Source: an uncultured Fodinibius sp. | Lineage (GTDB): Bacteria; Bacteroidota; Rhodothermia; Balneolales; Balneolaceae | Direction: 5' to 3' | Assembly: GCA_913056235.1 (NCBI GenBank) | Contig: CAJXMW010000001.1 | Coordinates: 1,364,001 to 1,428,000 of the forward strand | Length of the DNA: 64,000 nucleotides | In this document: positions 12,121-28,392 of the stretch, piece by piece | Numbering within the stretch: the first letter of the stretch is position 1 | Layout: each line of letters begins with the position of its first letter | Translations under genes and position numbers: made by a program | The notes under the pieces: generated by a model | The model's database searches: none | Told to the model about the DNA's origin: nothing | The model's input: only the letters and a program-made list of their open reading frames with translations

Positions 12121-12507
12121 TTAAAGTTCGTTTAGCTTTTTATAAAATTCTTCCGCCGATAAATCGTTTATGGAAATATCTCTACCCCCAGTCGCAGGTG
12201 CGACGAAAGAAAATTTTTCTTCTCCCTCTGGACTTACAAACAATTTAAGTTCAAAGAGTTCCTCTTCTTTTTTGTTTTCGAGTTTAACTAAACCACGTGC
12301 TGTATATACAGCATCAACAGAATCACCCATATTTGGATTGGGATTTTTTGTAATTATCTCATGAACCTTTTCTAAATTGCCGATTTCTAAACCGTTCTTC
12401 CATTTCACTGTATTAAGGATTTCGTCGACTTTTTCTTTCATCACTAACAAAGCCTCTATCGGTGTTTTTCCTGATCGAGGTTTGTAATAGGTAGTTATCT
12501 TGATCAT
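12121..12507 (-). CDS. phage hypothetical protein (128 aa)
   Basis: A small soluble protein of unknown family. It has a basic N-terminus (KITTYYKPRSGKTPIEALLVMKEKVDEIL), an Asn-rich turn (TKNPNPNMGDSVD), and an acidic C-terminal helix (LSAEEFYKKLNEL). It runs leftward, divergent from the winged-helix gene at 12688. Position in the control region is compatible with a regulatory role, but no motif supports one. Confidence 0.55.
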   Translation of the reverse strand: MIKITTYYKPRSGKTPIEALLVMKEKVDEILNTVKWKNGLEIGNLEKVHEIITKNPNPNMGDSVDAVYTARGLVKLENKKEEELFELKLFVSPEGEEKFSFVAPATGGRDISINDLSAEEFYKKLNEL

Positions 12508-12625
12508 TCGAATCTATTTAGTTGTAATAATTGATAGGTAAAATGTATCAGATAACTAAAAAATATTGTGGTTAAAATCTATTCATTACTATTTATAAAT
12601 GAATTTAAACCACCTCAAACTACTA

Positions 12626-12687
12626 CCATCATCACACACAAAGAGATTTTATTTAGGCTCTTGCAACTTACATACGTGTGATGATGG
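12626..12687. promoter_or_regulatory. 12-bp perfect inverted repeat upstream of the winged-helix gene
   Basis: CCATCATCACAC (12626-12637) and GTGTGATGATGG (12676-12687) are exact reverse complements, 38 bases apart. The right arm abuts the ATG at 12688. It could be an operator for autoregulation or a 5'-UTR stem that hides the start codon. Confidence 0.5.
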
Positions 12688-13575: not shown

Positions 13576-13626
13576 AAATATAAAGGGAATATATTTGGGT
13601 TTTATGCTATGTGATGTAAACAGAAA

Positions 13627-14352
13627 CTAATTTAATACACTGGGATCTATAAGTGATTTCATATCCTCAATAAATTCTTCCTCATTCATTTTCTTAGTCG
13701 GTATTCTTAATTCATCTTGAAATCCAACAAATGGATGAGTATCAGGTATTAAGTGAGATTGTTTTGAAGTGATAAAAATCCAATAGAACCCAAAAGCCAC
13801 AAAATAAAGGCAATTTAAATCTTCAGCTTTTGATGGAAATCTTGTTCTGAAAGGAGGAGTGATTAACCTTTGGTTAAATTCTGTTCCTTCTAGTTTTAAT
13901 AAAGTGAAACAATATTTTTCAGGGGGACCTGGGTTTTCATTTTGAAGCATCTTCTTAATCTTAGGTCCATGTGGCCCAAGAGTGGTATCTTTATAAGTTG
14001 GGAGATTTGATTTGTGAGCCCTCCAAATAATAGATAAGCCAAACAACTTCAGTTTATCATAATCAAAATCTTTGATTGTTGTTCTTCTGTTAGAACTTTT
14101 CTTTTCCCAAATTTCCCTCAACAAATCAGCAGTGTAAGTTTCGTACTTATTAAATTGCTCCTCACAATCTCTACACAGTAGATACTCTCGGAATCCTTTT
14201 TGAATTGGTCTTGTTGGCAATCTAGGATTCGCTGAAACAGATATAAACGAATGTGATTCATCATATGTAGGCTTATATAAAAACTCTGGAAAAATATGTG
14301 AGTTGCAAAGTTTCTTCTCTTGGTCACATAGTTTACACTTCTTTTTGCTCAT
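13627..14352 (-). CDS. zinc-ribbon/HNH-like accessory protein
   Basis: A 241-residue protein. The N-terminus reads KKCKLCDQEKKLCNSHIFPEFLYKP and, 30 residues later, LLCRDCEEQFNKYE: two CxxC pairs bracketing a conserved SHIFPEF segment. This pattern is seen in a family of uncharacterised proteins that resemble HNH endonucleases (zinc-binding knuckle plus histidine). The rest is unremarkable. It runs against the late direction in the accessory block beside the restriction-modification pair, so a lysogenic-conversion or defence role is plausible but unproven. Confidence 0.55.
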   Translation of the reverse strand: MSKKKCKLCDQEKKLCNSHIFPEFLYKPTYDESHSFISVSANPRLPTRPIQKGFREYLLCRDCEEQFNKYETYTADLLREIWEKKSSNRRTTIKDFDYDKLKLFGLSIIWRAHKSNLPTYKDTTLGPHGPKIKKMLQNENPGPPEKYCFTLLKLEGTEFNQRLITPPFRTRFPSKAEDLNCLYFVAFGFYWIFITSKQSHLIPDTHPFVGFQDELRIPTKKMNEEEFIEDMKSLIDPSVLN

Positions 14353-14358
14353 AGTGAC

Positions 14359-14457
14359 TTAACTGGTTTTTCTTACTCTCTTATACCAAAATAGCAGAGT
14401 TGCTAATATTAAAGCTGATATTCCGATATAAATGTTGAACGTAATTATTGCAAACAT
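14359..14457 (-). CDS. 32-residue single-pass membrane protein
   Basis: A short frame encoding an N-terminal hydrophobic helix (FAIITFNIYIGISALILATL) followed by a basic tail WYKRVRKTS. A GATAGAG purine stretch precedes the ATG. The stop is six bases from the start of the 13627-14352 gene, consistent with an operon. The region from 14458 to 14669 holds no further gene. Small size makes this tentative. Confidence 0.4.
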   Translation of the reverse strand: MFAIITFNIYIGISALILATLLFWYKRVRKTS

Positions 14458-14669
14458 ACTACTCTATCATTAATGAAAATTATATGGTTGTTATTTAAAA
14501 TTATTTACCAAGAAATTCATACCTAATTTTTATTATTACTAATCTTTGGTGATACATATGTTGAACCTTAATAATGATCACACTACCTTCACTTCGCAAT
14601 GAATATCATATTTTTTTATAGATATTTTGAGAAAAGAATAACTGTTAAGCAATAAGTATTTTAGAGCTC

Positions 14670-15494
14670 ATGGATAGGAACCCATATTATTCAAATTCGA
14701 AAGGGGAATTTTATAAAGCAGATGTACTCGATTTTTTGAAAGATCTGGATGATAAATCTGTCGATTTAATAATTGTTGATCCCCCATATAATATTGAAAA
14801 GGCAAAGTGGGATTCTGTTGGAACTGTTGAGGAATATTCAGAGTGGTGCGAAAAATGGTTAAAAGAATTTGATCGGGTTTTAACTAAAAAGGGAACTGCT
14901 TATGTATTCGGTTATTCAGAAAACTTAGCTTATTTGAAAGTTAAAGGAGATCAAATATTCCCGAGATGTAAGTGGTTGGTGTGGCATTACACAAATAAAC
15001 CAAATCTTAGAAATGATTGGGGTAGGTCACATGAAAGTATTCTACACTTTAGAAAACACAAAGATTTTACATTTAATGTAGATGAAGTAAGAGTTCCTTA
15101 TAATGACCATACTTTAAATTATCCAGAGAGAGAAGATGGTAAGAGTAGTAATTTTGGCAGCAAGGAAAAATATAAATGGACCCCTCATCCTAAAGGGGCT
15201 CGACCACGAGATGTTCTAGAGATGGGAGTAATAAATAACGGAATGGAAGAAACTACTTCACATCCAACTCAAAAACCAGAAGGTTTAATTGAGAAACTTG
15301 TTCTAGCTTCCTCTAATGAAGATGATCTAGTTCTAGATCCTATGGCTGGCAGCGGGACAACTTTTGCTGTTTGTCAGAAGAACGATAGAAATTGGATTGG
15401 ATGTGAAAAAGAAGAAGAATATTGTGAGATTATAAAAGATAGAATAGAAGAAATAGAAGAAAAACAATCTCAAGCAACTTTAAACTTGGATTAG
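14670..15494 (+). CDS. beta-class DNA adenine/cytosine-N4 methyltransferase (type II modification)
   Basis: A 274-residue site-specific methyltransferase. Catalytic motif IV DPPYN is at residues 37-41, the conserved HPTQKP is at 199-204, and the AdoMet motif I DPMAGSGTT is at 224-232. The order (catalytic motif first) defines the beta class; DPPYN favours N6-adenine over N4-cytosine methylation. Convergent with the endonuclease gene and overlapping it by 4 bp. The pair would protect the lysogen and restrict unmodified incoming DNA. Confidence 0.88.
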   Translation: MDRNPYYSNSKGEFYKADVLDFLKDLDDKSVDLIIVDPPYNIEKAKWDSVGTVEEYSEWCEKWLKEFDRVLTKKGTAYVFGYSENLAYLKVKGDQIFPRCKWLVWHYTNKPNLRNDWGRSHESILHFRKHKDFTFNVDEVRVPYNDHTLNYPEREDGKSSNFGSKEKYKWTPHPKGARPRDVLEMGVINNGMEETTSHPTQKPEGLIEKLVLASSNEDDLVLDPMAGSGTTFAVCQKNDRNWIGCEKEEEYCEIIKDRIEEIEEKQSQATLNLD

Positions 15495-16390
15495 AGCATT
15501 TCCCAAAGATCATTTAAGATAAACTTATCAAATGTTAATAAACGTCCTTTGATATGCTTATCGTCATGGCCTCTTGGTAAATCAAAATAATAAATTCCGT
15601 CTAAAGGATTTGCATCATAGTTTGTAGTAAAAACTCTAGGAACAAATGTTTTTGCTACGCCTCTTTTACCCCTGCGTTGAATATCGTGATTGAACACAGC
15701 AATCATTTTAACTTTTTCGCCACAAGCACTTTCCAAATCTTTCTTATCACTAAAAACGTGTTTGAATCTATCTTTGGAAGAATATTTGATTGAACAGAAC
15801 ACTTCATCAGGGTCTACGTGTTGATCGCCGGATTTTACTGTATCGTGTGGACTTAAAACTAAATCAATTCGACTTTTACCATATGGTTGAATTTCTGCAG
15901 AGTGTGTGATTTGAGTTTTTTTAAGCAATGCTAAAATTAAGTCTCCAAATCTTTCACCTACATTTTTCTTAGCTCCTTGAGACTCTAATACAATATCTCC
16001 TGCAATTCCTAAAGATATGCTTAAGGTGTATAAAACAGAGTTGATTAAATTGGGGGAAATATCTGGAGCTTGAATATCGTTTGAGCTGGCAAATTCTTCA
16101 ATTTTAGCTATTAGTTTATTGAAATCTTCATCAAATTGATCTTTTTCAGATATATACAAGTTGGAATTGACCGGTCTTGTTTTGACAGGACGTGGTGAAA
16201 TATCCCACACAAAGAATTGATATTGGTCGTAAGTATTTGAAGAACTATTCAAAGTTATTATCTCCTCGTTGCTCAACAGGTCAAAAGTCTTCAATGTTAG
16301 TTCATAAAAGACTTCGATATCCGTTATTGGATGTCGTATTAGTTCTTCTAAATCTTCTTGAAGACTTTTGAACATACTGAGTTGTCCCAT
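15491..16390 (-). CDS. putative type II restriction endonuclease
   Basis: A 299-residue protein convergent with the methyltransferase and overlapping its 3' end. A likely PD-(D/E)xK core is AEIQPYGKSRIDLVLSP (D176), followed about 25 residues later by EVFCSIKYSSKDR. The lysine (K202) fits, but the position expected to be acidic is serine, as in some diverged enzymes. The identification rests mostly on pairing with the methyltransferase. The recognition site cannot be predicted. Confidence 0.65.
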   Translation of the reverse strand: MGQLSMFKSLQEDLEELIRHPITDIEVFYELTLKTFDLLSNEEIITLNSSSNTYDQYQFFVWDISPRPVKTRPVNSNLYISEKDQFDEDFNKLIAKIEEFASSNDIQAPDISPNLINSVLYTLSISLGIAGDIVLESQGAKKNVGERFGDLILALLKKTQITHSAEIQPYGKSRIDLVLSPHDTVKSGDQHVDPDEVFCSIKYSSKDRFKHVFSDKKDLESACGEKVKMIAVFNHDIQRRGKRGVAKTFVPRVFTTNYDANPLDGIYYFDLPRGHDDKHIKGRLLTFDKFILNDLWEML

Positions 16391-16613
16391 CTTTGATGAA
16401 ATTAAATTACACTTTGAAAAATTTATCAGACTAAAAACCGGTACATAGATAATTATTATGATTTTAACTTACAAGTGTTGTACAAAGTAGTCTTGAAATC
16501 GTAGATCTAATTTTCACTTGTAAATTTTAGTCAAAGAGGAGACTCAAGCTAACTTGAAGAACAGGAAGGCATTATATATAATACTTTAAATTCTAATCAA
16601 TAGAGGATCAGAT

Positions 16614-16775
16614 ATGGCACGTAGTAAATGGGAGTTTTATAAAGACAACAACGGAGAATACAGATGGCGTAAAAAAGCAGCTAATGGTAAAATAGTTGGA
16701 GCTTCATCAGAAGGATTTAGCTCTAGACAAGCAGCTGTGAATAACGCCAAGTTAAATGGCTATCAAGGATCGTAA
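16614..16775 (+). CDS. DUF1508 (YegP-like) small protein
   Basis: A 53-residue protein preceded by AGAGGA at a good distance. KWEFYKDNNGEYRWRKKAANG, then IVGASSEGFSSRQAAVNNA, is the single-repeat DUF1508 fold found in YegP-like proteins, whose role is unknown. It is divergent from the restriction enzyme gene across ~220 bp, which should hold promoters for both; the palindrome TTGTACAA lies there at 16478-16485. Confidence 0.7.
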   Translation: MARSKWEFYKDNNGEYRWRKKAANGKIVGASSEGFSSRQAAVNNAKLNGYQGS

Positions 16776-16787
16776 GAGTTATAAGAG

Positions 16788-16922
16788 TTAATCGTCTGAA
16801 GAGGAGTTCTTTCCACCTTGTTTTGAAGGCTTCGGAACCTTTAAGTCAGACAATTTATTCATACTTTTTTTGACATAATCCTTGTTCTTGTCAGTCAGTT
16901 TCTTTGATTTTTTATCACTCAT
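16788..16922 (-). CDS. 44-residue lysine-rich protein
   Basis: A short frame rich in K, S and D (start KKSKKLTDKNKDYVKKS, end GGKNSSSDD). It lies 12 bases downstream of the 16935-17333 membrane gene on the same strand. No recognised family; likely a disordered or nucleic-acid-binding peptide if expressed. Confidence 0.4.
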   Translation of the reverse strand: MSDKKSKKLTDKNKDYVKKSMNKLSDLKVPKPSKQGGKNSSSDD

Positions 16923-16934
16923 TTTTCTAGTGGT

Positions 16935-17333
16935 TTAAATTAAAAGTGTGACTCCTATACATGTTGTAAAACCGACACCGAAGAAAAAGGATGTGAGAGC
17001 AGTTATATCAAGCCACCCTAACAGGGAATCATGACCGACATTCTCTTCAGTAATCAATCTCTTCATGTAATCGGGATTTTTAGAAAATATTACTATTACG
17101 CTTAGAATATTAACGATGAAAGCAGTAAAAGCTAAAGCGTAAAATATAGTCTCTGAAGTTGTTAGAGCTTCTTTAAAGCTTAAAAGAGTGACTAGTAAAC
17201 CTATACCTCCAGATGATAGGGTAATAAGACTTTTATCTCTTTCAATACTATTAGTAATCCAGCCATTTATAACAGCCGATCTAAAAATCTCATCTTTTTC
17301 ATGAGAGTCGTTATTTTTTGAATCTTTACCCAT
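16935..17333 (-). CDS. membrane protein (132 aa)
   Basis: A predicted inner-membrane protein with three hydrophobic segments, near 35-55 (LITLSSGGIGLLVTLLSF), 65-85 (FYALAFTAFIVNILSVIVIF) and 112-132. A cytoplasmic N-terminus carries the sequence NGWITNSIERDKSLITLS, seen in many small uncharacterised membrane proteins. The ATG directly follows the palindrome TTGTACAA (17334-17341). It belongs to the accessory leftward cassette and may be a lysogenic conversion gene. Confidence 0.6.
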   Translation of the reverse strand: MGKDSKNNDSHEKDEIFRSAVINGWITNSIERDKSLITLSSGGIGLLVTLLSFKEALTTSETIFYALAFTAFIVNILSVIVIFSKNPDYMKRLITEENVGHDSLLGWLDITALTSFFFGVGFTTCIGVTLLI

Positions 17334-17422
17334 TTGTACAACTTAGGCTAATCCACCTGAACCAGCATTAGGATCTTAAGCTTTTGGAGATAAGTTGATA
17401 ATAAATTATTATGTAATACATA

Positions 17423-17441
17423 GTACACACATGTTGTGTAC
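17423..17441. promoter_or_regulatory. TGTAC-type palindrome
   Basis: GTACACA and TGTGTAC are exact inverted arms around CATGT. Related 8-mers TTGTACAA occur at 16478-16485 and 17334-17341, each upstream of an accessory gene. These could be sites for one regulator. Confidence 0.35.
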
Positions 17442-17474
17442 ATATGTAAAACAAGAAAATTAAGTTACTGAAGT

Positions 17475-17547
17475 GGAGCCTGGGGGAATCGAACCCCAAG
17501 AGACCGGGTGACAAACCCGACTCACTCGCTCCAAGAGTTCAGGCCCC
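17475..17547 (-). tRNA. tRNA-like gene, anticodon uncertain
   Basis: Seventy-three bases on the minus strand fold as a tRNA. The acceptor arms GGGGCCT/AGGCTCC pair at all seven positions (one G-U); the D arm CTC/GAG encloses a loop with GG; the T arm GGGG-TTCGATT-CCCC is canonical. The anticodon stem TCGGG/CCCGG leaves the loop TTTGTCA, giving anticodon TGT with a pyrimidine at position 37. A shifted reading gives GTC with a poor stem. It may be degenerate or modified in function. CCA is not encoded. Confidence 0.6.
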
Positions 17548-17565
17548 GTTCAGTAATTATTTCTG

Positions 17566-17596
17566 AGCCATCCAGTTACCGCTGGATGGCTTTTTT
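17566..17596 (+). terminator. strong rho-independent terminator
   Basis: AGCCATCCAG and CTGGATGGCT pair perfectly around a 6-base loop, followed by a T run. It reads rightward, although no clear rightward gene precedes it. It may insulate the late region from upstream transcription or end an unannotated rightward RNA. Confidence 0.75.
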
Positions 17597-17834
17597 ATTT
17601 CTTCCACATATCAACATAATAGATTGCAAACAGAATATCTTTACACGTTAAAAACCGACTTAAAATATAAAAGTGTATTTAAAAGAAGCTGACAACGATA
17701 CTGTTATATTATTACAGTTGTATTTTAGTTTCACCTTGTGCGAGTAACATCGCCTCTAATTTCTATTCATCAACATAAGGAATGGTGAAGTCTTACCGAA
17801 GGGAATTGTAATACACTTTTTACAATCGAGTGAT

Positions 17835-17873
17835 AAAATTGTAATTGCATTGTAAAAATTGTGAATGCATTCA
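17835..17873. repeat. 20-bp-period direct repeat pair
   Basis: AAAATTGTAATTGCATT (17835-17851) and AAAATTGTGAATGCATT (17855-17871) differ at two positions and are spaced exactly 20 bases apart, about two helical turns. Confidence 0.55.
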
Positions 17874-17989
17874 ACATTTGTCGAATAGATTCGACCGTTT
17901 AAATCATTTTGAGAGGGGATGCTGAAAATAGCCCACAATAACATTAAAGAATCCTAACATAAAAGTGGTTCTAAAAGTCCTGAAACAGT

Positions 17990-18036
17990 AAGTTTTCAAT
18001 TAAAAGTTTCATTGAAGTTTCAATTAAGTTTCATTC
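17990..18036. repeat. four AAGTTTCAWT iterons, three in perfect 11-bp register
   Basis: AAGTTTCATTG (18004), AAGTTTCAATT (18015) and AAGTTTCATTC (18026) follow head to tail every 11 bases. A fourth copy with one extra T starts at 17990. The spacing puts every unit on the same helix face, as for cooperative binding of an initiator or regulator. Confidence 0.65.
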
Positions 18037-18136
18037 GATTGTGCGAGCAATCAAATCAAACAGCTGTTTTTCTTTTTGGGCTGGTACTTATTAGTGGAAG
18101 ACAGAGAAGTCTTCAAGATATAAATACACTTCTTTG

Positions 18137-18230
18137 ACGGTGGCTTAGGTCGCGTGTTCGATTAGTGAACATCATAGATGTCCACGATATCTATTACACA
18201 TCTCCTTATTAATTAATCCTAAGCCACCGT
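18137..18230 (+). ncRNA. structured leader RNA candidate (three-way junction) before the late operon
   Basis: ACGGTGGCTTAGG (18137-18149) pairs perfectly with CCTAAGCCACCGT (18218-18230). Inside lie two smaller hairpins: GTTC/GAAC (about 18155-18169) and AGATGT/ACATCT (18176-18181 with 18198-18203). TCTTTTT follows the closing stem. The first late gene starts 27 bases later. It could be a terminator, an antitermination (put/nut-like) element or a regulatory leader. Confidence 0.5.
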
Positions 18231-18256
18231 TCTTTTTAATCAATCGGGAGAGACAA

Positions 18257-18448
18257 ATGAATTTTTATGAAAAGATTATAGCAGGGGTTTTACTTTCGTG
18301 GTGTTTCCAATTTGGAGCATCAATCTATTACGCCTTTCAAGGTAACTATCAGTGGTTAGTAGCAAATCTAATGAATGGTATCGGAGCAAAGTTAATCTAC
18401 GATGCTGCTAGAAAAGTGAATCAAACAGAAGAGAAGGATAGTGGATAA
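18257..18448 (+). CDS. small membrane protein, holin candidate
   Basis: A 63-residue protein with two hydrophobic segments (about 7-27 and 33-50) and a charged C-terminal tail (RKVNQTEEKDSG). It is the first gene of the late operon, with the leader GGGAGAGACAA before its ATG. It overlaps the next gene, with an amidase two genes downstream. That arrangement fits a class II holin, but small membrane proteins at 22320 and 26710 are alternatives. Confidence 0.5.
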   Translation: MNFYEKIIAGVLLSWCFQFGASIYYAFQGNYQWLVANLMNGIGAKLIYDAARKVNQTEEKDSG

Positions 18449-18740
18449 GAAATCAGTATTTGAGAAATTGAGTGAAGACGGAGTACCAGGTGCTAAAAGA
18501 ATGCATGAATTACTCGAAACAGCTTCTAGTCAAAGAGATTGGGTTCTTTTCCACAATTTCTTGATGACATGGATGAAATGGGAAAAGACTCTTAAAGAGG
18601 AAGACAGAGAGAAAATGTATGATCTAATGGATGATGAAATGGTTCAGATTTCAGCTGAGCTACAGAATCGTCCAATGGATTCTAGGAAGCTAGTAAAGAA
18701 GTGTCTCCGTCTTTATAACAAAATGGATTATCAACAATAG
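18441..18740 (+). CDS. late-operon hypothetical protein (99 aa)
   Basis: A helical, charged protein of unknown family, starting at GTG behind AGAGAAGG and overlapping the preceding gene by 8 bp. It ends CAA CAA TAG at 18738-18740. The amidase frame continues in the same phase directly after this stop, with only three codons between the TAG and the likely ATT start of the amidase. Confidence 0.55.
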   Translation: MDKKSVFEKLSEDGVPGAKRMHELLETASSQRDWVLFHNFLMTWMKWEKTLKEEDREKMYDLMDDEMVQISAELQNRPMDSRKLVKKCLRLYNKMDYQQ

Positions 18741-18749
18741 AGAAGTACG

Positions 18750-19238
18750 ATTGCATTTCCCAACGGTATAGTAGTACATAGCATGAGTGAGCATATCACT
18801 TATGAAGGCTCGTCTTGGAAAGCTATAGATTTTTTAGATCACATCGGTTTATCAATTCATATTTTCATCCACCCGGACGGTAAAGTAGAACCAATGGTTC
18901 CAACTACTGAAAAAGCTTTACATGCTGGTAAATCAAAACATAACGGACTAACAGGTTTAAATAACCATTTCTTAGGATTCGAATTGCTAGTCCAAGGAAA
19001 TAATAACTACTCAGAATTCTTAGATAAAATTGAGAAACCTGAGACTTATACAGATCAACAATTTAATTCAGCAGTCTTACTCACTCGAGTATGGATGGAA
19101 GCTTATAACATTAGTTCACGAAATGTGGTGAGACATTCTGATGTATCAGGAGACGATGAAAGAGGAAAAGGGAATGGTAAGAAAGATCCGGGTAAAGGAT
19201 TTAATTGGAACGAGTTTTTAAAACGTATTAAACAATAA
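18750..19238 (+). CDS. N-acetylmuramoyl-L-alanine amidase (amidase_2-type endolysin)
   Basis: A peptidoglycan amidase of the T7-lysozyme/PGRP fold used for lysis. From ATG 18783 it is 151 residues, but that start omits the first zinc histidine. The frame upstream reads AFPNGIVVHS, matching the usual strand 'IVIHHT', and is preceded by AGAGAAG. The likely start is therefore the rare codon ATT at 18750 (162 residues). Other features are HIFIHPDGKVEPMVP, the conserved HAGKSKHNG and FLGFELLVQ, the second zinc ligand in RHSDVSG, and KKDPGKGF, where D takes the third ligand place. TAG readthrough from the previous gene is a second possible route. Confidence 0.8.
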   Translation: MAFPNGIVVHSMSEHITYEGSSWKAIDFLDHIGLSIHIFIHPDGKVEPMVPTTEKALHAGKSKHNGLTGLNNHFLGFELLVQGNNNYSEFLDKIEKPETYTDQQFNSAVLLTRVWMEAYNISSRNVVRHSDVSGDDERGKGNGKKDPGKGFNWNEFLKRIKQ

Positions 19239-19255
19239 GATTCAGGAGAGAAGTA

Positions 19256-19795
19256 ATGTCAGAAAAGAAATACAGCTACGTAGATCTAGAAGAACTAATC
19301 ATATCAGCACAAAAATTTTTGAATCAAGGTGAATATGATAAGAAACTAGTCTTTTTAATCAGGTCGAATATTAAGGAGGCTAAAAATGCTTTAGAGCTTA
19401 TTCACGAAGATGTAAAGCAAGAAGATGAGTATTTACAAAAAGAACTTTCAGAAAACGAATATAAAAGGTTTTCAGAGTTTGAAGAAAAACGATCAAAACT
19501 ATTCACAACTAACAACTACAAAATCAGTGAAAGAGGTGATAATTGGGATCAGTTAGATCAAGAGAACAGGGATGAGATAACGGATGGTATAGCCGAGTTG
19601 CAATTGGAGTACGGTGAGTCTATTGAAGCAGCAAAAAGCGCCCTTCAGGAGGTAATGGAATACAATGAAAAGGTAAAGACTGAAAAAGTAGCCGAAATAG
19701 ATTTTAAAGAAATACCACTTGATCTCTTTCCTGATTCCCTAACTGGTTCTCAGCTACCAGATCCATTTATGGAATTTGTGGTAATGGGAGAATAG
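19256..19795 (+). CDS. late-operon helical protein (179 aa)
   Basis: A highly charged, mostly helical protein with coiled-coil-like stretches (DVKQEDEYLQKELSENEY; NRDEITDGIAELQLEYGES) and a hydrophobic C-terminus (LTGSQLPDPFMEFVVMGE). No recognised family. A clear GGAGAGAAGTA leader precedes the ATG. Lies between the endolysin and the sigma-factor genes. Confidence 0.6.
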   Translation: MSEKKYSYVDLEELIISAQKFLNQGEYDKKLVFLIRSNIKEAKNALELIHEDVKQEDEYLQKELSENEYKRFSEFEEKRSKLFTTNNYKISERGDNWDQLDQENRDEITDGIAELQLEYGESIEAAKSALQEVMEYNEKVKTEKVAEIDFKEIPLDLFPDSLTGSQLPDPFMEFVVMGE

Positions 19796-19797
19796 CT

Positions 19798-19956
19798 GTG
19801 GTATTAATCGGGGTCGAGTACGATAGCGGCTATGTAGCCAAAATTGACAAGCTAACACTCACTATAGACGGAAAAGAGTACGTGTCGAGTGGTGGTGAAT
19901 TAATAGGCGTGACAACAAAAGATACGTGGGAAGAAGAATTTGAGAGAGAAGTTTAG
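19798..19956 (+). CDS. 52-residue late protein
   Basis: A small frame beginning with GTG, with GGGAG eight bases upstream, and ending in TAG whose G is the first base of the sigma-factor start. The sequence (VLIGVEYDSGYVAKIDKLTL, then TIDGKEYVSSGGELIG) suggests a small beta-rich protein. Family unknown. The overlapped stop/start makes translational coupling to the sigma gene likely. Confidence 0.5.
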   Translation: MVLIGVEYDSGYVAKIDKLTLTIDGKEYVSSGGELIGVTTKDTWEEEFEREV

Positions 19957-20819
19957 TGTCAAAGAATTATTGGGATGAAGAAGTAAATGATGCAATTAAT
20001 GAATTCATTTCTAACAAAGACTTATCAGAGAGAGAATTAGCGCAATTATATACACATGAGATTCATCCAGCTTTTGAAACAGCTGCAGAGTCACTTGTAT
20101 ATAGAGATAATTTACATACTTCATCTAAGCTATCAGGGACAGAGCTTGTTAATAGAGGTATTGCAAAGGCTTATGAAGCTCTTAGAAAATCAAGAGAAGG
20201 TGTAGATGAAGACAAATATTTTGATCCAGAGAAAGGCAAATCATTTTCTTACTTCTCTGTTTCGATTAAGTGGCATTTAATTCAGTGTATCAACAAAGCT
20301 AATAGGAATAAGAATAATTTCTATTCAATGGATTCGTCTCCAAGCAACGTTGATTCAAAAGATTACTGGGATAGTAAGATTCATCAAGAAGCTATAAGTC
20401 AAACTAAGGATGAAATTGAGGTTACTATGTTCAGTGATCTACTCGAGACATTTCTTTCGTTTGTTGAGAGTAATGTAAACGATTTATGGATTAAGCCAGC
20501 ACGTCGAAGAACCGCTTTAGCTATTGTTGAATTCATTAGAGAGGGTAATCTCGGACAATTTCATTTGAGAAAAAGCCTAAGAAAGATCAGAAAAAAAGCA
20601 AATATCGAAGTTAATAACTACGCATTCACTTCAGTTCGAAAAGATATGCTAAAGATATATGAAAGGATTAAAAAGAAGTGGGAGAAAGACGGTAAAGTTG
20701 ATGAGGACACGATTATATGGATGAGACAAAAAGATTGGCCGGGATCTCCTTCATCTGAAGAACGAGAGAAAATAAAAGAACAGTATTACGAGCTACAGAA
20801 ACAAAGAGGGAATTTATAA
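19956..20819 (+). CDS. phage late sigma factor-like protein (T4 gp55 type)
   Basis: A 287-residue protein. LVNRGIAKAYEALRKS followed by YFDPEKGKSFSYFSVSIKWHLIQCINKANR matches the sigma region 2 pattern of T4 gp55-like late sigma factors, where FDPxKG.xFSYF is the most conserved stretch. The C-terminal part (170-285) is basic and helical and may hold further DNA contacts. Starts at GTG behind GAGAGAGAAG. The stop overlaps the bS21 start (TAATG). Expected to direct host core RNA polymerase to late promoters; five TATTTAT boxes in late gaps are candidate targets. Confidence 0.72.
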   Translation: MSKNYWDEEVNDAINEFISNKDLSERELAQLYTHEIHPAFETAAESLVYRDNLHTSSKLSGTELVNRGIAKAYEALRKSREGVDEDKYFDPEKGKSFSYFSVSIKWHLIQCINKANRNKNNFYSMDSSPSNVDSKDYWDSKIHQEAISQTKDEIEVTMFSDLLETFLSFVESNVNDLWIKPARRRTALAIVEFIREGNLGQFHLRKSLRKIRKKANIEVNNYAFTSVRKDMLKIYERIKKKWEKDGKVDEDTIIWMRQKDWPGSPSSEEREKIKEQYYELQKQRGNL

Positions 20820-21037
20820 TGGTAAGAGTATCAGTAGAAGTACGAGATGGTGATTGGGAAAAAGCACTGAGCATATTCCAATCTAAAGTAAAGGAGAGTG
20901 AAATTCTGTATAAGTACAAAGAGAATCAGAGATTCACTTCAAATACGAAGGAAAGACAAGATGCAGAACACGCTGCAAAAATGAGAGAGAAAGATAGACC
21001 AAAGTACTACCCGGGTCAGAAATTAGGAGAACAGTAA
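20819..21037 (+). CDS. rpsU-like: bS21-like ribosomal protein
   Basis: A 72-residue basic protein. VRVSVEVRDGDWEKALSIFQ, then SKVKESEILYKYKENQRF, follows the bS21 layout: a beta start 'VxVxDGdxxExAL', two helices with 'FkrkvkksgIl.eyr.rq.F'. The C-terminal half is longer and different (ERQDAEHAAKMREKDRPKYY). bS21 sits beside the anti-Shine-Dalgarno on the 30S subunit. Phage-encoded bS21 is known from other phages. The overlap TAATG with the sigma gene implies coupled production of the two. Confidence 0.7.
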   Translation: MVRVSVEVRDGDWEKALSIFQSKVKESEILYKYKENQRFTSNTKERQDAEHAAKMREKDRPKYYPGQKLGEQ

Positions 21038-21435
21038 TGCCTAAATCAATTAGTGACCTACGTAGAAAACGAAGACAGTCTAGCAAATCTCCTAAAACGC
21101 GAAGACAAATAGAGTCTGAGTGGTATCAATCGAAAGAGTGGAGAACTGTAAGAGAAGAATCCAGAAGAGAGCAGCGTCAGAAAGACGAAGATAGAATTAT
21201 ATCTGTATTTGAAGAACTTGAAAATGCTACTTCTAGTGATCTGTATGAGTTTCTGACTCATAAAAAACAGTATCCATTGTGTAATCATTGTTTAGAGGAA
21301 GGATTCATCACAGTGGGAAACGTTTGTGACCACATTATTCCGATAAAACGTGGTGGAGCTAAGTTAGACAAATCCAATTTGCAGTGGTTGTGTCACGATT
21401 GTCACGCTATAAAAAGTGGCAAAGAAGCTCATTAA
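21037..21435 (+). CDS. HNH endonuclease
   Basis: A 132-residue protein with a basic N-terminus and a C-terminal HNH domain: YPLCNHCLEEG, then VCDHIIPIKRGGAKLD, then LQWLCHDCHAIKSGKEAH. Both CxxC zinc pairs and the DH catalytic strand are present. In HK97-type phages HNH proteins near the terminase stimulate packaging cleavage; a homing role is less likely because of the short form. The ATG overlaps the bS21 stop (TAATG) and follows AGGAGAACAG. Confidence 0.85.
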   Translation: MPKSISDLRRKRRQSSKSPKTRRQIESEWYQSKEWRTVREESRREQRQKDEDRIISVFEELENATSSDLYEFLTHKKQYPLCNHCLEEGFITVGNVCDHIIPIKRGGAKLDKSNLQWLCHDCHAIKSGKEAH

Positions 21436-21528
21436 AATTATCCGACCGCTTTTTATTAGCCGCCTTCTATGTATTACTGAACACAGCTCAAAATGAGTGA
21501 CTAAAAGTTAAATAAAAGGAGTAATCAT

Positions 21529-22101
21529 GTGGAAGGTGATACACAACGAACGGAATTTGCATATATATGGACTAACAAGAAAACAAATAGATATTACGCA
21601 GGATCACACAAAGGAGATCCTGATGATGGATATATAGCCAGTAATAAAGATTTCTTAGCTAGGTATGAAAGGAATCCTCAGGACTGGAATAGAACAGTCG
21701 TTCTTTCAAAAGATTGCCGAAAATTAGAAGAAGCTTTTTTGAAAGCTGTTAACGCTTCTCAGGATTATAGGAGTTTTAATAGAGTAAACAGAGCTATAGC
21801 ACCAATGGACGATATTAGGGGTGAGGATCATTTTTTCTACGGAAAGAAAAGGCCTAAGCATTCAAAATGGATGAAAGAGAATCATCACAAGTATTGGAAA
21901 GGAAGACGTAGGAAAGATATCGAAGGGAATAATTTCGCTGGTAAGAGAGTAAGACATATCAAATCTGGTGAAGAATTTAAATCAATAACAGAAGCAGCTA
22001 AGCAGTTTGGATATTCAAGAGGTACTGTGTCGTTACACGTAAATGGTCATATACAGAAAAAGAAATTCGAATTCGTAAATGAGGAGCAAGGTGATAAATA
22101 A
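21529..22101 (+). CDS. GIY-YIG homing endonuclease-like protein
   Basis: A 190-residue protein. FAYIWTNKKTNRYYAGSHKG is a GIY-YIG-like catalytic start (YI..., then YYAGSHKG), and AFLKAVNASQDYRSFNR follows. The middle, GEDHFFYGKKRPKHSKWMKENH, is a NUMOD3-type basic motif. The C-terminus, KSITEAAKQFGYSRGTVSLHVNG, is a NUMOD1 helix-turn-helix. Starts at GTG behind AAAGGAG; an overlapping out-of-frame ATG two bases upstream is not used. A likely free-standing selfish nuclease inserted between late genes. Confidence 0.75.
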   Translation: MEGDTQRTEFAYIWTNKKTNRYYAGSHKGDPDDGYIASNKDFLARYERNPQDWNRTVVLSKDCRKLEEAFLKAVNASQDYRSFNRVNRAIAPMDDIRGEDHFFYGKKRPKHSKWMKENHHKYWKGRRRKDIEGNNFAGKRVRHIKSGEEFKSITEAAKQFGYSRGTVSLHVNGHIQKKKFEFVNEEQGDK

Positions 22102-22318
22102 TGAAGAGCTAAAGAGAAAAAAAGAACGTTGGTTATCGCTTCTCAATGATATACTGACTAGCAAATATAGTGAGAGTGAATGCAAAGAAATCCTGGAAGA
22201 AATGCGATCTCAATTGACAAACTACTCAGTAGAACAATACAGAGAGGTCGATAATAGAATAGACTTATCAGTAAAAGAGAAATTAAAACTACAATTCGAA
22301 GACTTGGAGAGAGAATAA
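22091..22318 (+). CDS. late-operon hypothetical protein (75 aa)
   Basis: A charged helical protein of unknown family. The frame is also open from ATG 22079, but AGGAG at 22082-22086 sits inside that longer version and at the right distance for GTG 22091. Overlaps the end of the GIY-YIG gene by 11 bp. Confidence 0.5.
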   Translation: MINNEELKRKKERWLSLLNDILTSKYSESECKEILEEMRSQLTNYSVEQYREVDNRIDLSVKEKLKLQFEDLERE

Positions 22319-22319
22319 A

Positions 22320-22610
22320 GTGAGTAGTGAAGAAAGCAACAAAGATATTAATTACAGTGATATAGTAGAGAACATACAGGGATTTGCATTGTGGCTTGTT
22401 AACGTATCAACAATGCTATGCTGTAGTCTGTTATTGCTACTGTTTACTGTTGGTGTAGGAGTGGAAGTAATAAAGGATATTGAGCACTTAGAATTGATGA
22501 ACTTCTCAGTATTCTATTTGTATTTGCTTCTAGGTTCAACTGTTAGCTTAGGACTTAATTGGCTGCTGACTTATATACAGAAAACGTTAATGCGTGGGGC
22601 CGAGAGCTAA
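22320..22610 (+). CDS. two-helix membrane protein
   Basis: A 96-residue protein with hydrophobic segments at about 24-46 (LWLVNVSTMLCCSLLLLLFTVG) and 60-84 (FSVFYLYLLLGSTVSLGLNWLL). GTG start after GGAGAGAGAATAAA. Another holin candidate; no family recognised. Confidence 0.55.
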   Translation: MSSEESNKDINYSDIVENIQGFALWLVNVSTMLCCSLLLLLFTVGVGVEVIKDIEHLELMNFSVFYLYLLLGSTVSLGLNWLLTYIQKTLMRGAES

Positions 22611-22660
22611 GCATTAATTCAAATTGATAAACTAAATAGGAATAAAGGTACAAGAGGGTA

Positions 22661-22999
22661 ATGGGATTGTTTAATTGGATGTTTGGATGCAAGGAAAGAG
22701 ATCATCATATCAAGACAGTAGAGTTCGGTATAAAAGAAATTGACAAGCCAACAAAAGACAATGCTGTACTGATAAGATATAAAGACGATGAGCACATAGA
22801 AGAACCTATCAGTGAAGGAGATGTACTCCAAGTAGACGATAAAGATGCACTAAGAATAGAAGACGTAGATGCAGGTAAAAGGATTACCATCAACAAGAGA
22901 GTACATAAAATAGTGTTTAAAGTGTTGAATGATGAAGAACCTATTAAAAATCTCATGACAGGAGATACACTCGAGTTGAATTGCACTGCTACCTACTGA
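22661..22999 (+). CDS. late-operon hypothetical protein (112 aa)
   Basis: A soluble protein with an N-terminal Trp/Cys/His cluster (LFNWMFGCKERDHH) and many acidic residues, probably beta-rich. Preceded by AGAGGG. No family recognised. About 200 bases without a gene follow, containing an AGAGT/ACTCT-type hairpin near 23004-23021 and TATAAAT near 23133. Confidence 0.5.
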   Translation: MGLFNWMFGCKERDHHIKTVEFGIKEIDKPTKDNAVLIRYKDDEHIEEPISEGDVLQVDDKDALRIEDVDAGKRITINKRVHKIVFKVLNDEEPIKNLMTGDTLELNCTATY

Positions 23000-23202
23000 C
23001 GAGAGTTGTCAACACTCTGATGAGTAGTGATTGTGTGCTGTGCTTTCAAATAGATTGACGGGGTCGTTTCTGTGAAAAATCTTGAACATAGGGCATGAAA
23101 AATCATAAAAACGGCGAATACCTATAAATCTTTCGACACCATAAGTATTTTTTCTCCCCAAAAATAGAGACGGCCAAGTTCACAAAAATCAAGAGAAGTA
23201 AG

Positions 23203-23550
23203 ATGAAAAGCATTTGGAACTACCTAAAATACATTCTTCTAATAATCGGTTCAGTACTCGGATACATCTTCATCTCCAATCGCAACATAGATGAAGAGAT
23301 CAAAGAGGTTGACAATAAGATTCAGGAGAATAAAAAGAAGGAAAAAGAGCTAACTGATAAGATCAAAAAGAAGAAAGAAGAGATTTCCAATACTGATTCA
23401 GATATCAAGAAAACTGAAAAGGAAATCAAAGAGACTGAAAAACAACTCAATCAAGTCAAAAAGAAAGTTGAGAAAGAGTCCATTAGAAAATCAGCTAAAC
23501 AGAAAGTGAAATATTTAAAAGAGTTTGCAAGGAGAGAGAAGAATGAATAA
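23203..23550 (+). CDS. membrane-anchored coiled-coil protein, spanin candidate
   Basis: A 115-residue protein: one N-terminal transmembrane helix (ILLIIGSVLGYIFIS) followed by a long, almost pure Lys/Glu coiled coil (from NIDEEIKEVDNKIQENKK to the C-terminus). This is the topology of an inner-membrane spanin subunit (Rz-like), which acts in outer-membrane disruption at lysis. The partner could be the 23721 protein. Leader CAAGAGAAGTAAG. Confidence 0.5.
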   Translation: MKSIWNYLKYILLIIGSVLGYIFISNRNIDEEIKEVDNKIQENKKKEKELTDKIKKKKEEISNTDSDIKKTEKEIKETEKQLNQVKKKVEKESIRKSAKQKVKYLKEFARREKNE

Positions 23551-23728
23551 AGAAGACAATCTATTTCCGGAGGATATTGAAATAGAAAATGACATATCAG
23601 AATCAAGTTTTTTTGAAGAAATCACACAACATCATTTACAGGTAATAAAAGAAAATGAAGTAGTTGGTCACGGGATTACAAGTTTGTCAGACAAAGTATT
23701 AGAGATCACGTTTAAAATTCATGTTTAA
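23543..23728 (+). CDS. late-operon hypothetical protein (61 aa)
   Basis: An acidic small protein. ATG 23543 follows GGAGAGAGAAGA directly, so an earlier in-frame TTG at 23525, which would lie before this leader, is rejected. Overlaps both neighbours by 8 bp. Family unknown. Confidence 0.5.
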   Translation: MNKEDNLFPEDIEIENDISESSFFEEITQHHLQVIKENEVVGHGITSLSDKVLEITFKIHV

Positions 23729-24107
23729 AAAAGCACTTCTAATATCAGCCTTTCTATTAATTCCTCTATTAGGATTCAGCCAATCTCAGGATTCTACATT
23801 TAGCTTCACTTCTACAGAGATAGATTCACTCTATTCTAAAGTGAGAACACTGCAAATAAACGACTCACTTAAAACGATTAAGCTGAGACAGCAGCAACAA
23901 TTAGTTACCCAGCTTAGAACGAAGATTTCACAGTATGAGGACCTAAATTCCCTTCAGGAGAGCAAGATTGACTTACTTGATAAAAGAATAGAGTTGAAGA
24001 CTGAGAAGAATGATCTATTACAGAAAAAGATAAATCGTAATAGATTCAAACATATTCTAATAGGATCAGGAGCAGGAATTCTTTTAGGAGTTCTCATAGC
24101 TCAATAA
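23721..24107 (+). CDS. secreted coiled-coil protein with C-terminal membrane helix
   Basis: A 128-residue protein: a signal peptide (KKALLISAFLLIPLLGFSQS), a coiled coil across about 30-100 (RQQQQLVTQLRTKISQYED and following heptads), and a C-terminal hydrophobic helix (HILIGSGAGILLGVLIA). Together with the 23203 protein it could form a periplasm-spanning lysis complex, or be a unimolecular spanin-like variant without a lipobox. The organisation is suggestive only. Confidence 0.5.
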   Translation: MFKKALLISAFLLIPLLGFSQSQDSTFSFTSTEIDSLYSKVRTLQINDSLKTIKLRQQQQLVTQLRTKISQYEDLNSLQESKIDLLDKRIELKTEKNDLLQKKINRNRFKHILIGSGAGILLGVLIAQ

Positions 24108-24139
24108 AAAAATAACCCGGCCAAGTTCTTTTTCTGAGA

Positions 24140-24147
24140 TATTTATT
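24140..24147 (+). promoter_or_regulatory. candidate late promoter box
   Basis: TATTTATT in the gap before terS, 33 bases upstream of its ATG. One of five near-identical boxes in late intergenic gaps. Confidence 0.4.
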
Positions 24148-24179
24148 CATTGAAAATGACAATTCATAAGAGAGATTAA

Positions 24180-24542
24180 ATGGTGACTCTAGAAGTACGT
24201 GAAATACCCGATACACCGCAGGTGTTAGAAGACGATGAGTATTGGAACTATTATTGCCAACAACTTCAGGACGAAGGACGACTTTACAAGAAAGATCTTT
24301 CAGCTATCAAAACACTTTGTTTTTGGGAAGAGGAAAGAGACAAACTTTTAGAGACTATTAAAGAGGAAGGACTTACTGAAAAGGCTGGTTCTAAAATCAG
24401 ACGGAATGGTGCTCATACAACAATTGAAAAGGTAGAGAGATCAATCAAATCACTTCGAAAGGAATTAGATGTAGCACCTCATTGGTCTTCAGATTCAAAA
24501 GAAAATAACAACGGTTATAAGATTCCTGATAAGAATTTTTAA
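24180..24542 (+). CDS. terS: terminase small subunit (P27-like)
   Basis: A 120-residue protein with the P27-type layout: an acidic start (EDDEYWNYYCQQLQDEGRLYK), a helix DLSAIKTLCFWEEERDKL, and KAGSKIRRNGAHTTIEKVERSIKSLRKEL near the C-terminus, where P27 proteins carry the 'NP...A.....L..L...LGLTP' region. It recognises phage DNA for packaging by TerL. Leader ATAAGAGAGATTAA. Separated from terL by three tRNA genes, which is unusual. Confidence 0.75.
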   Translation: MVTLEVREIPDTPQVLEDDEYWNYYCQQLQDEGRLYKKDLSAIKTLCFWEEERDKLLETIKEEGLTEKAGSKIRRNGAHTTIEKVERSIKSLRKELDVAPHWSSDSKENNNGYKIPDKNF

Positions 24543-24548
24543 TGACTA

Positions 24549-24622
24549 GGGGGTGTAGCTCAAATGGCGAGAGCATCTGGTTTGCAATCAGAGGGCTGTA
24601 GGTTCGAGTCCTATCATCTCCA
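24549..24622 (+). tRNA. tRNA-Ala (TGC)
   Basis: Acceptor GGGGGTG/CATCTCC (two G-U pairs), anticodon arm TCTGG-TTTGCAA-TCAGA with anticodon TGC, T loop TTCGAGT. CCA is not encoded. Lies between terS and terL, reading GCA codons, which are common in the late genes. Confidence 0.85.
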
Positions 24623-24627
24623 CACTT

Positions 24628-24701
24628 GCTCCTAAAGCATTTATTCGGATGATGTTCTGTCTTGTAAACAGAGGAATTCGGTTCAATTCCGAATAGGAGC
24701 T
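24628..24701 (+). tRNA. tRNA-Thr (TGT)
   Basis: Acceptor GCTCCTA/TAGGAGC pairs perfectly. Anticodon arm TCTGT-CTTGTAA-ACAGA gives TGT. T arm TTCGG-TTCAATT-CCGAA. Only five bases separate it from the tRNA-Ala. Confidence 0.88.
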
Positions 24702-24707
24702 CAACAA

Positions 24708-24782
24708 GCGGAATTGGTATAGCTTGGTCTATTACTCCTGACTTCCAATCAGGCGACACCGGTTCAAATCCGGTATTCCGCT
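24708..24782 (+). tRNA. tRNA-Gly (TCC)
   Basis: Acceptor GCGGAAT/ATTCCGC pairs perfectly. Anticodon arm CCTGA-CTTCCAA-TCAGG gives TCC. T loop TTCAAAT. Ends 26 bases before the terL start. Confidence 0.88.
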
Positions 24783-24808
24783 CATTAGTTAATCAAGAGA
24801 GAAGGATA

Positions 24809-26695
24809 TTGTCAGATGAAATTATTGAATGTGGTATTGATGAGATAGATCAATACACAAGAGATGTATTGTCAGGAGAGATTCCTACCTGTAAACACAC
24901 TCGTTTAGCAGTTGAGAGAAATCAAAAAGACTTAGCTAAACAGAGAGATCCTGACTATCCATATTATTTCAATGATAAAGCAGCAAAGCACTTCTTTAAT
25001 TTCTGTGAAAAGCACGTTAAACACTACGAATCATCGTTTAGAGGTGAGCCTTTCAAGCTCGAACCATTCCAGAAATTCATTTTAGGCAACATTTTTGGGT
25101 GGTTAGAAAAGGATAAACAGCATATAAGACGTTTTAGAACTGCCAATATCTTCATGGGTAAGAAGCAGGGAAAGAGTTTCATGGCTGCTGTTATAGCTCT
25201 TTATATGCTTTGCTTTGATGGCGAAGGTGCTCCACAGGTCTATTCTGTTGCTAAAAACAGGATGCAAGCTATCAAACTTTCATTTAGAGCCGCTTTAAAG
25301 ATTAGAAAGTGGTCTCCATTGATTAAGAGACTTACCGATAGCAAAGAAGCGACTCATAACACTCAGATTAAATGTGAAGAGACTGATGGATTCTTTGAAC
25401 CACTTACTTCTAATCCAGAGGCTACAGATGGTTTTTCAGTTCATTGTGCAATTCTTGATGAAATTAAAGATTTAACTGATCCAAGCATTCAATCAATCCT
25501 TTCTGATGGTACAGCAGCACGACCAAATTCGTTAGTACTCAACATTACTACTGCTGGCCCAAATACTAACTCTCTAGGATATGAAGTTTACGAAGATTCT
25601 AAAGATGTACTTCAAGGAAAGTATGATTTAGAGAATTGCTTCTGCATTATTTACGAAGCAGATGAAGATGACCTAAAGAATTGGGATACAGAAGAGGTTT
25701 GGAGAAAAGCTAATCCGAACTTTGGGGTTTCAGTTTCTAAAAGTTATTTCGAGAGGAAAGTAAAAGCTGCTAAAGGCAATCTTAGAAAGAAAAATGATTT
25801 TTTAACTAAGCATCTTAACGTATGGAGTAAGTCATCTACTGGATGGTTAGATATTACAAAGTGGGATGATTGTTATAAAGATGTATCGATTGAAGATGTA
25901 GAGCATCTTCCAGCAATAATGACTTTTGACCTTTCAAGTAAACTTGACTTAACAGTAGTTCAACTCACCTTTTTTGAAGGATCATCAATAGCTGATTTAA
26001 AATTGTATCCATTTACATTCAGCTACCTTCCTGAGAAAAGATTTACAAAGGATAGCGGAGAGAGCAATGACCGTTACTTGCAAAAACTCAAAGAATGGAG
26101 AGAAAAGAGTCATATAATTCCTTGTGGTGAGAAAGAAATAGCACCTTTAGATGTTAAAGACGATATACTCGACTTATATCACAAGTATGATGTCCGACAA
26201 ATTGGATATGACCCTTCAGAAGCTCATGCTATCATTAATTTACTCGAGAGAGACAATATTTTAGATCCTGAAAAGGATATGATCGAAATACCAATGGGAT
26301 TTAAAAACTTTTCGGAGGGTACGAAGACTTTAGAAGGGATGATCCTGTCTGAAAGAGTAGTTAACACTGGAAATCCTGTTTTAAGGTGGTGTTTAGAGAA
26401 TACTCAGATCAAAATTGATCATAAAGACAGAATCAGGCCAGTAAAAGAGAGTAACGATGAAAAAATAGATGCTTCTGTGTGCTTAATAATGGCTGTAATC
26501 ACATATATATGGACGATAGACGGTCAAGATACAGGAGTTTCATCGTGGATAGATAGGGCAAAAGACGAAGAAAAGTTACTAGAAAAAGAAAAATTCATCG
26601 AAGAAGACGACGAAAAAGAGCAGGAAAAAGACGACGAACAACCTGAAGAACGCCGTAAAAGAGCGGTTTCATCATGGGTAGATCGTTATTCATAA
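24809..26695 (+). CDS. terL: terminase large subunit
   Basis: A 628-residue packaging motor. The ATPase domain has a Walker A variant GKKQGKS (117-123) in FMGKKQGKSFMAAVIALYML, and Walker B AILDEIKDL with D217/E218. The motif III-like stretch LVLNITTAGPNTNSLGYEVYED follows. The C-terminal RNase H-like nuclease starts at PAIMTFDLSSKLDLTVVQL. Of the Terminase_1/HK97 group. The C-terminal ~50 residues are a very acidic linker ending in SSWVDRY. Starts at TTG 24809 behind AAGAGAGAAGGA. Confidence 0.93.
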   Translation: MSDEIIECGIDEIDQYTRDVLSGEIPTCKHTRLAVERNQKDLAKQRDPDYPYYFNDKAAKHFFNFCEKHVKHYESSFRGEPFKLEPFQKFILGNIFGWLEKDKQHIRRFRTANIFMGKKQGKSFMAAVIALYMLCFDGEGAPQVYSVAKNRMQAIKLSFRAALKIRKWSPLIKRLTDSKEATHNTQIKCEETDGFFEPLTSNPEATDGFSVHCAILDEIKDLTDPSIQSILSDGTAARPNSLVLNITTAGPNTNSLGYEVYEDSKDVLQGKYDLENCFCIIYEADEDDLKNWDTEEVWRKANPNFGVSVSKSYFERKVKAAKGNLRKKNDFLTKHLNVWSKSSTGWLDITKWDDCYKDVSIEDVEHLPAIMTFDLSSKLDLTVVQLTFFEGSSIADLKLYPFTFSYLPEKRFTKDSGESNDRYLQKLKEWREKSHIIPCGEKEIAPLDVKDDILDLYHKYDVRQIGYDPSEAHAIINLLERDNILDPEKDMIEIPMGFKNFSEGTKTLEGMILSERVVNTGNPVLRWCLENTQIKIDHKDRIRPVKESNDEKIDASVCLIMAVITYIWTIDGQDTGVSSWIDRAKDEEKLLEKEKFIEEDDEKEQEKDDEQPEERRKRAVSSWVDRYS

Positions 26696-26709
26696 AGTAG
26701 AGAGAGACA

Positions 26710-26907
26710 ATGAGTGAAGATTTTAAGAAGAAAGTTAAATCAAGAAAACTAATAATAGCTGGAATCTTATTTGCAACCTCTACAGTGTTGCTTGTAACAG
26801 GTAATGCTGAATTCTCAGGTTGGTCTAGCTTTAATCAATGGGTATTTGGTTTATATGCAGCCGGGAACGTAGGGGAGCATCTGAAGGACGCTATGAAAGA
26901 GAAATAA
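26710..26907 (+). CDS. small membrane protein (65 aa)
   Basis: Two hydrophobic segments, near 14-31 (IIAGILFATSTVLLVTG) and 40-55 (WVFGLYAAGNVGEHL). Leader AGAGAGAGACA directly before the ATG. Sits between terL and portal. Family unknown; a holin is possible. Confidence 0.55.
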   Translation: MSEDFKKKVKSRKLIIAGILFATSTVLLVTGNAEFSGWSSFNQWVFGLYAAGNVGEHLKDAMKEK

Positions 26908-26933
26908 AAGTCCTATACCAGTCTTATATCAAA

Positions 26934-26941
26934 TATTTATT
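26934..26941 (+). promoter_or_regulatory. candidate late promoter box
   Basis: TATTTATT in the gap before the portal gene, 34 bases upstream of its ATG. The same spacing as the box before terS. Confidence 0.4.
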
Positions 26942-26975
26942 CCCAGCTAGCTAGACAAATAAGAGAGAATAAATT

Positions 26976-28361: not shown

Positions 28362-28392
28362 AATAATTCCTTTAAGCTGAGTGTCCGGCGGG

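Follow-up and report, generated by a model that had tools for sequence, protein, structure and literature searches.

Does a phage that carries a sigma factor candidate beside a homologue of the ribosomal protein bS21 redirect both transcription and translation when it turns to its late genes? This question is raised by a prophage in the window (the whole stretch of 64,000 nucleotides that was analysed), where the two genes adjoin. Chen et al. had already proposed in 2022, for lake phages of Bacteroidetes that encode bS21, that such a protein acts in favour of late phage mRNAs in Bacteroidota (PMC9723584), and the published proposal of bS21 steering ribosomes to phage mRNAs came without a cis-acting signal to test. 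The prophage adds to this a sigma partner, a temperate carrier of 40 kb and a candidate cis signal, consisting of AGAGAGA leaders that precede late genes, are absent from early genes and are rare in host genes. The phage that carries this candidate signal is small and integrated and has a sigma gene linked to bS21, and its host group is largely without Shine-Dalgarno (SD) sequences at gene starts. No report of a sigma-bS21 pair or of a GA leader was found in the open-access literature.

The prophage and its late block

The prophage is inserted in comM, which is linked to natural transformation and whose N-half (8222-9079) and C-half (48964-49656) flank it, and the short core GATGTTGC is shared by both prophage ends. 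PHROGs matches were obtained for TerL, portal, protease, capsid, tape measure and tail fibre, and an identical phage is present as an IMG/VR contig. The large ORF adjoining the left end is a candidate serine integrase, on account of an N-terminal serine-recombinase motif of 10 residues that was read by eye. The late genes form one rightward block on the plus strand, in the order endolysin, sigma, bS21, HNH endonuclease, homing-endonuclease-like ORF, tRNAs, TerL, portal, protease, capsid and tail, which places the sigma and bS21 genes a few kb upstream of TerL (Table 1). The prophage holds five tRNA genes: Ala, Thr and Gly follow one another directly before TerL (24549-24783), a tRNA-Trp lies among the neck genes (35003-35077) and a second tRNA-Thr is on the minus strand (17473-17547). 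A gene for a DNA N6/N4-methylase (14670-15494) is located in the left, early part.

Table 1. Coordinates of the prophage, its main genes and the leaders of its late genes within the window
Feature	Position	Strand	Remarks
Prophage, HK97-type siphovirus, ~40 kb	9062..48960	.	inserted in comM
Serine-type integrase/recombinase, large, 564 aa (candidate)	9049..10743	-	adjoins left end; motif read by eye
Amidase endolysin	18783..19238	+	Pfam Amidase_2 5e-17; upstream in same rightward block
Small ORF, 52 aa	19798..19956	+	shares 1 nt with sigma gene (TAGTG)
gp55/sigma-70-type phage sigma factor candidate, 287 aa	19956..20819	+	GTG start; family profiles and model
Phage bS21 homologue, 72 aa	20819..21037	+	ATG start; Pfam 32.8 bits; TAATG overlap with sigma gene
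HNH endonuclease	21037..21435	+	Pfam HNH 1.4e-9, PHROG HNH 2.7e-15; TAATG overlap with bS21
Homing-endonuclease-like ORF, NUMOD-type end	21529..22101	+	PHROG 5.9e-8; Pfam NUMOD1 below cut-off
Terminase large subunit (TerL)	24809..26695	+	PHROG 4.1e-135; first packaging gene past cassette
AGAGAGA leader of TerL	24796..24802	+	
AGAGAGAGA leader of ORF 26710	26699..26707	+	
AGAGAGA leader of portal	26962..26968	+	
AGAGAGA leader of head protease	28449..28455	+	
AGAGAGAGAG leader of major capsid protein	29355..29364	+	
AGAGAGAG leader of ORF 30811	30796..30803	+	
AGAGAGAGA leader of ORF 32597	32587..32595	+	
AGAGAGAG leader of head-tail adaptor	33408..33415	+	
AGAGAGA leader of ORF 35176	35162..35168	+	
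AGAGAGA leader of major tail protein	36102..36108	+	
AGAGAGAGA leader of tape measure	37349..37357	+	
AGAGAGAGA leader of ORF 45306	45287..45295	+	

The host belongs to the Balneolaceae, with Fodinibius/Aliifodinibius as nearest named relatives by ComM, and retains its own bS21 gene elsewhere, separate from the prophage copy. It lies outside the class Bacteroidia, and its ribosome is not of the Bacteroidia type.

Like the phages of Chen et al., the prophage has its bS21 gene near packaging and structural genes; those phages, however, are large (up to 331 kb), had no detected integrases and encode bS21 on the reverse strand, whereas here a 40-kb integrated siphoprophage carries it on the same strand as, and overlapping, a sigma gene, together with GA leaders and with no aromatic residue at position 54 (PMC9723584). 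In the survey of Mizuno et al. (2019), only 3 of the 1,310 viral genomes or contigs that encode bS21 showed temperate signatures, and cultivated phages possessing bS21 or HPF were larger than 130 kb, in contrast to the small integrated carrier described here (PMC6375957). Further prophage bS21 genes were looked for in 129 genomes of the order and none was recognised, two other genomes giving partial second matches only.

The sigma factor candidate and the phage bS21

The coordinates first given for the sigma ORF (19956-20819) and the bS21 ORF (20819-21037) proved correct, and the two ORFs have one base in common within TAATG. This overlap is real, but the special pairing that had been read into it did not stand: one-base overlaps occur at six late-region junctions (19956, 20819, 21037, 29368, 33118 and 34060), five of them elsewhere, and it was therefore regarded as ordinary packing and rejected as a mark of special coupling. 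The adjacency of the two genes was seen only here. At 80 viral sigma loci and at 19 bS21 loci it did not recur, the identical phage aside, and the two genes lie far apart in LR756508 (a huge phage), in the 223-kb record of L148 and in the Microcystis phage Mel-JY01.

Family profiles and a structure model indicate, with high but not complete confidence, that the 287-aa ORF, which contains FDPEKGKSFSYF, encodes a gp55/sigma-70-type protein, in line with the first identification. The protein itself gave no direct sigma match in Pfam, PHROG or NCBIfam; divergent sigma members can miss such profiles. By tblastn, distant relatives were retrieved from LR756508, from Mel-JY01 and, weakly, from the Rhodothermus phage RM378; their alignment in turn retrieved 80 viral loci, with E-values inflated by the presence of these targets in the profile itself, bringing the viral family to at least 84 members. 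Sigma70_r2 was matched by 13 of 37 aligned relatives (best 1.3e-5), as was the PHROG sigma family phrog_1740 (13/37), and three matched phrog_234, ‘late sigma’. The profile searches advised at the outset thus recovered bS21 directly and the sigma only by way of its relatives. The genome contigs yielded no sigma relatives, a 51-residue match in L004 being taken as a chance match in an unrelated ORF.

The AF2 model of the sigma has a mean pLDDT of 76, rising to about 90 for the greater part of residues 11-112. It resembles T4 gp55 (7d7c_F) with a VIA Z of 9.9 at 3.1 Å over 109 residues (21% identity), a score to be read with the caveat that chance alone can give helical folds a middling Z. Almost all of the PDB entries that VIA lists for the model are sigma factors. 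Foldseek gave no significant E-value against the PDB; its viral matches comprised an unnamed protein first and then several named sigma factors (prob 1.00). The candidate shares with T4 gp55 the fold of sigma region 2, a motif of the FDPEKG..FSYF type and the late-region position, but differs in its length of 287 aa and in a C-terminal helical part (helices 181-245) that falls on region 4 only when the full-length structures are superposed, with an rmsd of about 20 Å. Also in contrast to T4, no T4-type late promoters were recognised before the late operons. Apart from the GA leader, the intergenic gaps of the late region hold no shared late-promoter motif, host-type -33/-7 promoters gave no match in the prophage, and its TATAAAT occurrences are not placed before late operons; the choice of late promoters by the sigma, which the initial annotation had inferred, thus found no matching motif.

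The bS21-like identity of the 72-aa protein was confirmed by Pfam Ribosomal_S21 (PF01165; E 5.5e-8, 32.8 bits, cut-off 27), with residues 5-56 aligned to profile positions 1-53 of 55. Because the score fell below the cut-off of the NCBIfam S21p equivalog (24.9 vs 28.95 bits), the protein is filed as a divergent bS21 homologue and not as an equivalog. Its model has helices at 13-26, 29-38 and 42-58, with a mean pLDDT of only 66.8. The KP(S/T) motif is lost (TSNT, compared to TKPS in host bS21) and the net charge is +3 vs +12 in the host protein; to judge by these replacements, contacts with the ribosome (rRNA binding) may be altered or weakened. The divergent C-terminus pointed out earlier is present but unremarkable, because the bS21 C-termini of phages and bacteria diverge generally (PMC9723584). 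A small tree, moderately supported and with long branches, places the window bS21 together with LR756508 (89/89) and L147/L149 (84/89) and separates it from the bS21 of Balneolaceae. The bS21 of L148, on the 223-kb contig, is the same as that of L147, and both large records of this clade, LR756508 and L148, also encode the sigma. Mel-JY01 encodes the sigma too, with a bS21 that falls elsewhere in the tree.

AGAGAGA leaders and the role of the cassette

The supposition that phage mRNAs are led by purines was borne out in a stronger form than the one claimed: the late genes have a specific (AG)n leader, mostly 2-10 nt ahead of the start codon. GAGAG occurs 4-20 nt before the start of 18 of 37 late genes vs 7 of 309 host genes and none of 9 early genes, fractions that are approximate because gene starts were assigned by a simple ORF picker. 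The background of GAGAG in the same region is 3.3%, and shuffling of each late leader gave a mean of 1.5 and a maximum of 7 against the 18 observed; the comparison of late with early genes (Fisher p=0.007) rests on only nine early genes. Throughout the late block AGAGAG is found 52 times on the coding strand vs 3 times on the other, 24 of the 52 lying at most 17 nt from a start. AGAGA without GG precedes 12 of the 21 genes from TerL on, compared to 4 of 309 host genes and 1 of 127 genes near the portals of three same-order prophages, where no bS21 is seen.

A weaker form of the same pattern is present in LR756508, the huge phage with a sister bS21, where AGAGA stands in 20 of 229 leaders vs a background of 2.4% (binomial 9e-7). 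GA leaders were not seen in G129 and Mel-JY01, and since G129 has bS21 and sigma, this pair does not require such leaders. Candidate GA leaders picked by DNA pattern in three viral contigs (L259, L218 and L232), in which no bS21 or sigma was found, were set aside, since most of them include GG and resemble ordinary SDs.

Our preferred reading, which we hold tentatively and place a little below an even chance, takes the cassette for a late-stage switch, in which the sigma would act as late regulator and bS21 would tilt initiation in favour of late mRNAs with GA leaders. Once the prophage is induced, the gp55/sigma-70-type protein would join the core of host RNA polymerase and bring it to late phage promoters; its role as late regulator is likely from homology and position. 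Many siphophages keep their late regulator between the lysis and packaging genes, as the sigma is placed here. The phage bS21, probably co-transcribed, would then replace host bS21 on the 30S platform, bS21 being an exchangeable protein located close to the mRNA and to the 3' end of 16S rRNA. Such entry into ribosomes is plausible by analogy with another phage bS21, which enters E. coli ribosomes (PMC6375957). In a third step, 30S subunits with phage bS21 would favour late mRNAs with the AGAGAGA leader over the SD-poor, A/T-rich leaders of the host, a speculative link given by a correlation that one phage shows, that LR756508 partly supports and to which G129 is a counter-example. With a sigma factor, its own bS21 and AGAGAGA leaders that host genes lack, the phage may thus take over transcription as well as translation at the late stage. 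A phage-specific translation channel, in which AGAGAGA would be a non-SD initiation signal preferred by 30S subunits with phage bS21 while the sigma makes those mRNAs simultaneously, so that one cassette would switch both layers of gene expression, we consider unlikely.

It is quite possible, if clearly short of probable, that the sigma is the late regulator while bS21 plays no part in selectivity and restores the supply of bS21 or competes with the host protein, and jointly that the AGAGAGA leaders are degenerate purine-rich ribosome binding sites read by ordinary host ribosomes. Such ordinary reading is possible since GA-rich leaders pair moderately with the anti-SD (about -6 kcal/mol): AAGAGAGAGA can form a bulged duplex with CUCCUUUU at about -5.9 kcal/mol, late leaders have a mean pairing energy of -5.7 vs -3.5 kcal/mol for host genes, and same-order prophages without a phage bS21 likewise out-pair the leaders of the host. 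Yet the GA leaders hardly out-pair their own shuffles against the anti-SD tail (about -5.8 vs -5.4 kcal/mol), unlike those of G024, which clearly do (-6.1 vs -4.3), so the AGAGAGA motif is not optimised for anti-SD pairing; moreover, most GA leaders are without GG, their exact (AG)n order goes far beyond composition, and a same-genus 16S rRNA contains neither CUCUC nor UCUCU. Late leaders as canonical SDs were rejected, with AGAGA without GG dominating from TerL on and pairing little above shuffles. An altered anti-SD in the host group was likewise discarded, the canonical GGATCACCTCCTTT being present in one same-genus and two same-family genomes (host 16S rRNA is absent from the assembly). 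SD-like leaders were observed in two of three same-order prophage portal regions; across these regions (L187-L189; G024 and G084, no bS21) they amount to 29% vs a background of 3-4%, in SD-poor hosts.

The phage bS21 might instead serve mainly in host shut-off, ribosomes that contain it initiating poorly on host mRNAs with phage mRNAs less affected. We regard this as rather improbable: ribosomes with a pelagiphage bS21 kept only about 5% activity and the window bS21 deviates from the conserved KPS motif and is much less basic than the host's, but that E. coli-based assay concerned a foreign host and another bS21 protein (PMC6375957). Very improbable, finally, is a hitchhiking cassette, in which mobile endonucleases would have brought sigma, bS21, HNH and the homing-like ORF in from a large phage and bS21 would serve no present function: two endonuclease-like ORFs directly follow bS21, its closest relatives are in large phages and the adjacency with the sigma is confined to this phage, but all reading frames are intact, the bS21 gene lies within a tight overlapping string and an HNH ORF near the terminase is a common phage packaging arrangement.

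bS21 and the anti-Shine-Dalgarno in Balneolales

In Flavobacterium johnsoniae, Tyr54 of bS21 stacks on the 16S tail and changes in bS21 shift the use of SDs (PMC9976891); the Bacteroidetes-phage bS21 proteins of Chen et al. keep this Tyr54 or have it swapped for another aromatic-ring residue (PMC9723584). At the corresponding position, in an ungapped reading by F. johnsoniae numbering, the phage bS21 has Met and the host bS21 Arg, and none of the Balneolales bS21 proteins read has an aromatic residue there. Tyr54, the residue of the anti-SD-hiding pocket in Bacteroidia, is therefore lacking in both host and phage, and the pocket that the initial annotation invoked for Bacteroidota ribosomes does not carry over directly. 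Freeing of the anti-SD by loss of Tyr54 in the phage protein relative to the host was rejected for the same reason, the host also being without the aromatic residue.

The host resembles F. johnsoniae in its SD-poor gene starts, where SDs of at least 4 nt are no commoner than at any ATG, and many related Balneolaceae resemble it in having an extended SD before rpsU; in contrast to F. johnsoniae, this SD is absent in the host and 11 genus mates. Across the loci compared (L012-L041, L001 and L400-L410), rpsU is preceded by an extended SD of about -12 to -14 kcal/mol in most of the Balneolales sampled but not in the host and these genus mates, which extends the signature of bS21 autoregulation beyond Bacteroidia and Chlorobia. 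Given this strong extended SD in many Balneolaceae, a variant mechanism may let bS21 control access to the anti-SD in the order. Outside the prophage, a 37.5-kb viral contig (L154, IMGVR_UViG_2830120999_000001) carries a bS21-like ORF with a Tyr near position 54 and a low net charge.
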